Source of the DNA: Treponema sp.
Lineage (GTDB): Bacteria > Spirochaetota > Spirochaetia > Treponematales > Treponemataceae
DNA: 64,000 bases
NCBI GenBank assembly: GCA_022510865.1
Contig: JAFLSQ010000001.1
Location: 1-64,000, forward strand
Direction: 5' to 3'
Position numbers and translations under genes: made by a program. Under the pieces are notes generated by a model. The model made no database searches. It saw nothing but the letters and a program-made list of their open reading frames with translations, and was not told the DNA's origin. This document shows positions 165-719 of this stretch, piece by piece; position 1 is the first letter of the stretch; each line of letters opens with the position of its first letter.

Positions 165-662
165 CTATTTTTTATACAGTTTTGGATACCAATCCGGTCT
201 ATTCGCACCCCAATACGAAGATTCTTCAAATCCCAACACCTCCATTCCGAAAATATAGAGCACTTCATCCTCATAAAAATAAACACAGTTATTATCGGTG
301 TCCATCTCAAGCTGATTAATCATATCTGTGAACGGAGTATCGAAATTGTAGAATTCTGAGCCGTTTGAATAATCCTCCACGTAGTAATAATTAGAATACG
401 GAATGTTATTGTTGTTCTTGTTCACCCATGCATCCCAATTAAAGTCAAATGACTGCGATTTGCCATCGTAAGTAATCGTCAATGTACCGGTCAAATCATG
501 CTCAAAAATCATTTTCACGATGGCTTCCTCATTTCCATTCTTCCATGTTCCTTCCCAAGATGTTCCTGAAAACATTCTTTCGCCTTGTCCACTGCATCCA
601 GCGAACACGAGGAACAGAACCAAAGCACTCGTAACTGTAAAAATTTTTGTGAATCTTTTCAT
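165..662 (-). CDS. Predicted lipoprotein of unknown function
   Basis: Start trimmed to MKRFTKIFTVTSALVLFLVFAGCS (lipobox FAGC); AGGAGG-like SD just upstream; the track ORF 165..719 extends through the promoter. Confidence 0.75.
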   Translation of the reverse strand: MKRFTKIFTVTSALVLFLVFAGCSGQGERMFSGTSWEGTWKNGNEEAIVKMIFEHDLTGTLTITYDGKSQSFDFNWDAWVNKNNNNIPYSNYYYVEDYSNGSEFYNFDTPFTDMINQLEMDTDNNCVYFYEDEVLYIFGMEVLGFEESSYWGANRPDWYPKLYKK

Positions 663-691
663 AAGATTCCTCCTTAAAATAGCATTATGAA

Positions 692-719
692 AGTATACCC
701 CCCCCTCGTATATTGTCAA
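692..719 (-). promoter_or_regulatory. Sigma-70 type promoter with poly-G tract in the spacer
   Basis: Minus strand: TTGACA-ATATACGA-GGGGGGGG-TATACT, 16-bp spacer, ~30 bp upstream of the lipoprotein ATG. Confidence 0.75.

Follow-up and report, generated by a model that had tools for sequence, protein, structure and literature searches.

Several surface-protein promoters that are tuned by a run of G have been described. In Treponema pallidum, tp0126 (an OmpW homologue) carries poly-G between its -35 and -10 boxes and is expressed best with a 17-nt spacer (Giacani et al. 2015, in PMC7864442). In porA of Neisseria meningitidis, poly-G lies wholly within the -35/-10 spacer and its length sets the transcription level (PMC7864442). 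Promoter poly-G also occurs at the T. pallidum surface-protein genes tprE/G/J and tprL with lengths that vary within isolates, and tprE/G/J are transcribed with eight or fewer G's (PMC7864442). At tprL, the G run is not in the spacer; it covers part of the -10 region, beside the transcription start site (PMC7864442). The simple sequence repeat (SSR) phasomes of Campylobacter, Helicobacter and Neisseria comprise numerous G/C tracts in each genome, and these are often found at genes for surface structures. These phasome tracts lie mostly within coding sequences.

The promoter described here was found in a window of 64,000 nucleotides, the whole stretch of DNA that was analysed (a gut treponeme, Treponema sp., GCA_022510865.1, contig JAFLSQ010000001.1, positions 1 to 64,000). 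Its minus strand reads CTTGACA-ATATACGA-GGGGGGGG-TATACT at 720-692, as established by direct reading and pattern match (Table 1). Both hexamers are near-consensus. An earlier note on this DNA had proposed a TTGACA/TATACT promoter ahead of a lipoprotein start codon, with a G8 run confined to a 16-bp spacer, and this description was exact; the predicted lipoprotein downstream was also borne out by its signal peptide and lipobox. As in tp0126 and porA, the homopolymer is wholly between -35 and -10 with a spacer near 17 (TTGACA-8nt-G8-TATACT, 16), and the promoter serves an exported-protein gene (SD, ATG and lipobox Cys23; export predicted from sequence). With tp0126 it shares a treponemal setting and a gene downstream for an outer-surface protein, here a predicted one. 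However, tp0126 is one outer membrane protein gene that was tested experimentally, whereas the window case is a lipoprotein gene served by one of 10 copies of the same promoter design. Likewise, porA is a single proteobacterial porin gene with no shared promoter family. With tprE/G/J and tprL the locus has in common poly-G in treponemal promoters of surface proteins. A tprL-type placement of the window G8 is ruled out; the tract ends before the -10 box. The earlier note had cited tpr genes of T. pallidum and some Neisseria surface-protein genes; the published analogues with poly-G exactly between the two boxes are tp0126 and porA, and tprL is not among them. Like the SSR phasomes, this genome has many G/C tracts, but its leading recognisable class is that of promoter-spacer tracts. 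Phase variation by frameshift within a coding sequence does not fit this locus, where 35 nt separate the end of the tract from the SD-supported ATG.

Table 1. Features of the poly-G promoter and its downstream gene, in window coordinates
Feature	Position	Strand	Remark
-35 hexamer TTGACA	714..719	-	Consensus; C at 720 precedes, as in related promoters; read directly
Non-G spacer part ATATACGA, 8 nt	706..713	-	Read directly
G8 homopolymer, proposed slippage element	698..705	-	Read directly
-10 hexamer TATACT	692..697	-	Abuts the G tract directly; read directly
Predicted transcription start	685	-	About 7 nt past the -10 box; inferred from the -10 position only
Shine-Dalgarno AAGGAGG	669..675	-	6 nt ahead of the ATG; read directly
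ATG of lipoprotein gene	660..662	-	29 nt downstream of the -10 box
Lipoprotein gene P0001, 165 aa	165..662	-	Translation
Signal peptide with lipobox FAGC (residues 20-23; Cys23)	594..662	-	Translation

The lipoprotein had no Pfam, NCBIfam or convincing PDB match, and its single-sequence structure model is unreliable (mean pLDDT 43.7). Its leader is similar to those of congener lipoproteins driven by poly-G promoters, for example MKKFAKLSAVLAAMVIALAFAGC in L323. On the other hand, it is without a clear orthologue. The best relatives are weak matches whose similarity is largely confined to the signal peptide. None of the three highest-ranking has a poly-G promoter, which was counted against the switch proposed below. 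Two weaker relatives possess one, L323 in the strict form and L325 with one extra base before a -10-like sequence.

On its own, a run of G8 is nothing unusual for the window, since dinucleotide shuffles gave a mean of 0.50. The full promoter-embedded pattern appeared in none of 100 shuffles. The earlier note's remark that no other G/C homopolymer was this long stands for the window, whose only G/C run of at least 6 is this tract, but fails for the genome, which contains 37 runs of G8 or longer. Their lengths are not monotonic: 12 runs are exactly G7, followed by 5 of G8, 19 of G9, 7 of G10, 3 of G11, 1 of G12, none of G13, and 1 each of G14 and G15. Because of this peak at G9, the long runs look maintained and not like the tail of a random distribution. 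Ten of the 37 tracts lie close to the end of a contig, some 500 bp away at most (G000 contigs C25, C59, C64, C88, C91, C96, C112, C119, C129 and C135), where about 2.3 were expected (binomial P 8e-5). Possibly, tract heterogeneity or low coverage of poly-G broke the assembly at these places.

The genome was examined by pattern search and by reading the stretches around all 37 tracts. Ten of them share the design CTTGACA-N4-10-G8-15-TANNNT (the window locus, L031, L035, L039, L041, L042, L043, L044 at 4343, L045 and L058), and the reversed pattern gave none. A script rule assigned the ten genes to 6 lipoproteins, 2 other signal-peptide proteins and 2 others. The leader of L043 is masked by N in the assembly; it adjoins L042, has the same upstream sequence and is readable as ...VFGAASC. 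It was moved by hand to the lipoproteins, and the resulting counts of 7, 2 and 1 were used in the Fisher tests for this genome. The remaining gene, L044, encodes a 201-aa protein without a signal peptide. With L043 hand-placed, 9 of the 10 promoter genes are exported against 11 of 57 window genes (Fisher P = 3e-5).

Other tracts of this genome are arranged differently. In L054 (contig C96 319-347, minus strand), the promoter has poly-C in its spacer (CTTGACG-TTATA-C9-AG-TATAAT) and a lipoprotein gene follows. Such mirror promoters (L328-L342; e.g. CTTGACATACCCCCCCCCATTGATATAAT) were also seen in 8 of 146 congeneric genomes. In L060, a G12 (tract 324-335) is inside the signal-peptide codons of a lipoprotein. 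The congener loci L310, L312, L317, L318 and L295 also have G8-12 there, and across the set including L060 some genes are in frame and some apparently out. Such tracts are likely to confer translational phase variation of lipoproteins. About 13 more G/C tracts stand at a near-constant distance from a TATAGT/ACTATAC motif, mostly without TTGACA; many of them are close to the 3' end of a gene or separate two convergent genes. They are arranged as CTATAC-N4-14-G9-11 (L033, L037, L038, L046, L051, L052, L057 and L062) or as G8-10-N8-TATAGT/G (L040, L050, L053, L055 and L059). The motif CTATAC-N4-8-G8+ is common to seven tracts of this genome. It was ruled out as one promoter class; several inspected matches in other species are inside lipoprotein signal-peptide codons.

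The design recurs widely in relatives. A search of 146 congeneric species with the strict pattern gave 117 matches, spread over 40 of these species, and the reversed control gave none. At the order level, 33 of the 72 genomes in this family carried the pattern, whereas among 127 genomes of other families 5 did. The finished chromosome of T. succinifaciens carries 11 copies (6091T, 2,731,853 bp; PMC3156407). Of the 111 distinct promoters retrieved, 73 stand ahead of a gene for a lipobox protein, 24 ahead of one for a signal-peptide or membrane protein and 10 ahead of other genes; the remaining 4 have no readable gene. Exported or membrane proteins thus account for 97 of the 107 promoters whose gene is readable. 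Under the same rule, only 11 of the 57 genes in the window fall into this group (3 lipoproteins and 8 with a signal peptide or transmembrane segment). The rule is a regular expression and not a trained predictor, and the counts are uncorrected for relatedness. A set of non-poly-G promoters meant as a control contained three members only. In the 111 promoters, the non-G part is 4-10 nt and the G tract 8-15 nt, a -10-like hexamer follows the tract, and the SD and ATG are mostly 28-55 nt downstream. Loci of the T. succinifaciens group (L285, L286 and L287, and L208, L240, L256, L257 and L259) have a nearly identical promoter, leader and signal peptide (MRKFAKISAVLAAMVLALAFAGC) with differing mature parts, which suggests a shared 5' cassette among these lipoproteins. 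The same promoter pattern was also seen in Clostridia, Bacilli, Streptococcus (including S. suis, L153) and other taxa (L066-L180), often before exported proteins. The named matches outside spirochetes are a mixed set: some resemble genuine poly-G promoters for exported proteins, and others may have arisen by chance, given the great size of the collection.

Tract length differs among near-identical promoters. It is G10, G9 and G8 in L243, L282 and L255, G13 and G9 in L185 and L186, G9 and G8 in L228 and L271, and G11 and G9 in L232 and L275; the paralogues L042 and L043 of this genome have G8 versus G15. Among 21 selected close pairs, spacer length had changed in 14 over about 16 bp, versus 73 indel events in 3613 bp of flank. 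Per base, the spacer changes in these selected pairs are only about twofold commoner than the flank indels. Some pairs hold the spacer constant by exchanging C for G (L254/L283), and others have identical spacers (L241/L252 and L208/L256). The between-species comparison therefore supports hypermutability of the tracts without proving it, because the excess is only about twofold and some trades of C for G keep the spacer constant; both points were counted against the switch. So was the length of the window tract, since G8 is near the short end for high slippage rates. A spacer of 17 is under-represented among the 111 promoters: it was observed 8 times, whereas shuffling the two spacer parts independently predicted 19 (P about 0.0008, with relatedness uncorrected). 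This leaves two readings, namely that most copies were caught in a weaker state, or that the optimum here differs from 17. The deficit was likewise counted against the switch, as a simple view that 17 is best predicts otherwise unless weaker states were sampled. Tract length and non-G length correlate negatively (r = -0.19 overall and -0.71 in this genome), but the correlation was given no weight, since spacers above 20 could not match the search pattern in the first place.

Taken together, transcriptional phase variation by spacer slippage is very probably the best explanation for the G8 promoter, as the earlier note had proposed. It is supported by an anatomy that recurs with zero control matches, by the bias to exported genes and by near-identical promoters with differing tracts. 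On this view, the promoter is of the sigma-70 type and the G8 in its spacer is a simple sequence repeat prone to slippage. Slippage during replication would add or remove G's and thereby shift the -35/-10 distance, which is 16 as assembled and 17 with one more G. The altered spacing would change the efficiency of initiation by RNA polymerase, and expression of the lipoprotein would differ reversibly among subpopulations. Since the assembled spacer is 16, G9 (17 bp) is the predicted stronger state. At least 10 promoters of this Treponema genome, the window promoter included, would be switches of this kind. They belong to a promoter class that recurs across the genus of T. succinifaciens and elsewhere in the family, where most of the genes served encode lipoproteins or other exported proteins. 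We infer that the tract switches within the population, that transcription is affected and that the lipoprotein is surface exposed. Its presumed role would be in evading immunity, phage or predators.

Three other readings were weighed. The G-rich spacer could belong to a static class of lipoprotein promoters, in which it tunes promoter activity or is bound by a regulator, without its length acting as a switch. Such a class would agree with the conservation of the non-G part, the -35 box and the tract within clades, with the clustering of tract lengths at 8-10, with the pairs that keep identical spacers and with flank indels that are not rare. We regard it as unlikely, because tracts range from 8 to 15 in one genome and differ between near-identical promoters. 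In addition, pure runs of G8-15 are slippage-prone, as established for T. pallidum and Neisseria, and 76% of 17 further G8+ tracts in T. pallidum are clearly length-variable (PMC7864442).

The two remaining readings are much weaker. Chance or an assembly artefact, meaning an accidental G8 near a promoter or an error in homopolymer length, is very improbable. Although a bare G8 is not rare at the window composition (0.5 expected) and assembled homopolymer lengths carry errors, neither point accounts for 117 real versus 0 control matches in 146 genomes, for the absence of the promoter form from the 100 shuffles, for the strong bias to exported proteins or for the copies in the finished T. succinifaciens chromosome. 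A translational switch is the least credible of all. It would start from a TTG at 719 that opens a 184-codon ORF through G8, so that slippage shifts the frame of the lipoprotein, and the frame 165-719 is indeed open through the tract into this gene. However, this TTG belongs to the -35 box and has no SD before it, whereas a strong SD and a signal peptide mark the start at 662; the -10-like hexamer and downstream SD/ATG of the 111 promoters also argue against it.

The mechanism of promoter-spacer slippage is already known from T. pallidum and Neisseria. In the open-licence literature, whose silence is weak evidence, we found no description of the promoter set for T. succinifaciens, gut treponemes or T. 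denticola poly-G tracts. What the searchable literature did not contain is a genus- and family-wide set of lipoprotein switches in gut treponemes. We tentatively put forward a broader model for the Treponemataceae, which is possible but rather less likely than its alternative. In this model, the one promoter class (CTTGACA, 4-10 nt, G8-15, TANNNT) would act as a combinatorial switchboard: in the richer genomes, some 5-18 lipoprotein promoters would slip independently of one another. Most copies would be one or two bases off the 17-bp optimum at any time, in keeping with the deficit of 17-bp spacers, and each cell would show few of its surface lipoproteins.

The finding is notable for its scale, as a repeated promoter design serves lipoproteins across a genus that has harmless gut species among its members. 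The cultivable T. succinifaciens DSM 2489 (biosafety level 1), with its 11 copies, would make tract variation and its effect on expression directly measurable, which is hard in T. pallidum. The overall result suggests that treponemes other than pathogens also switch their surface.
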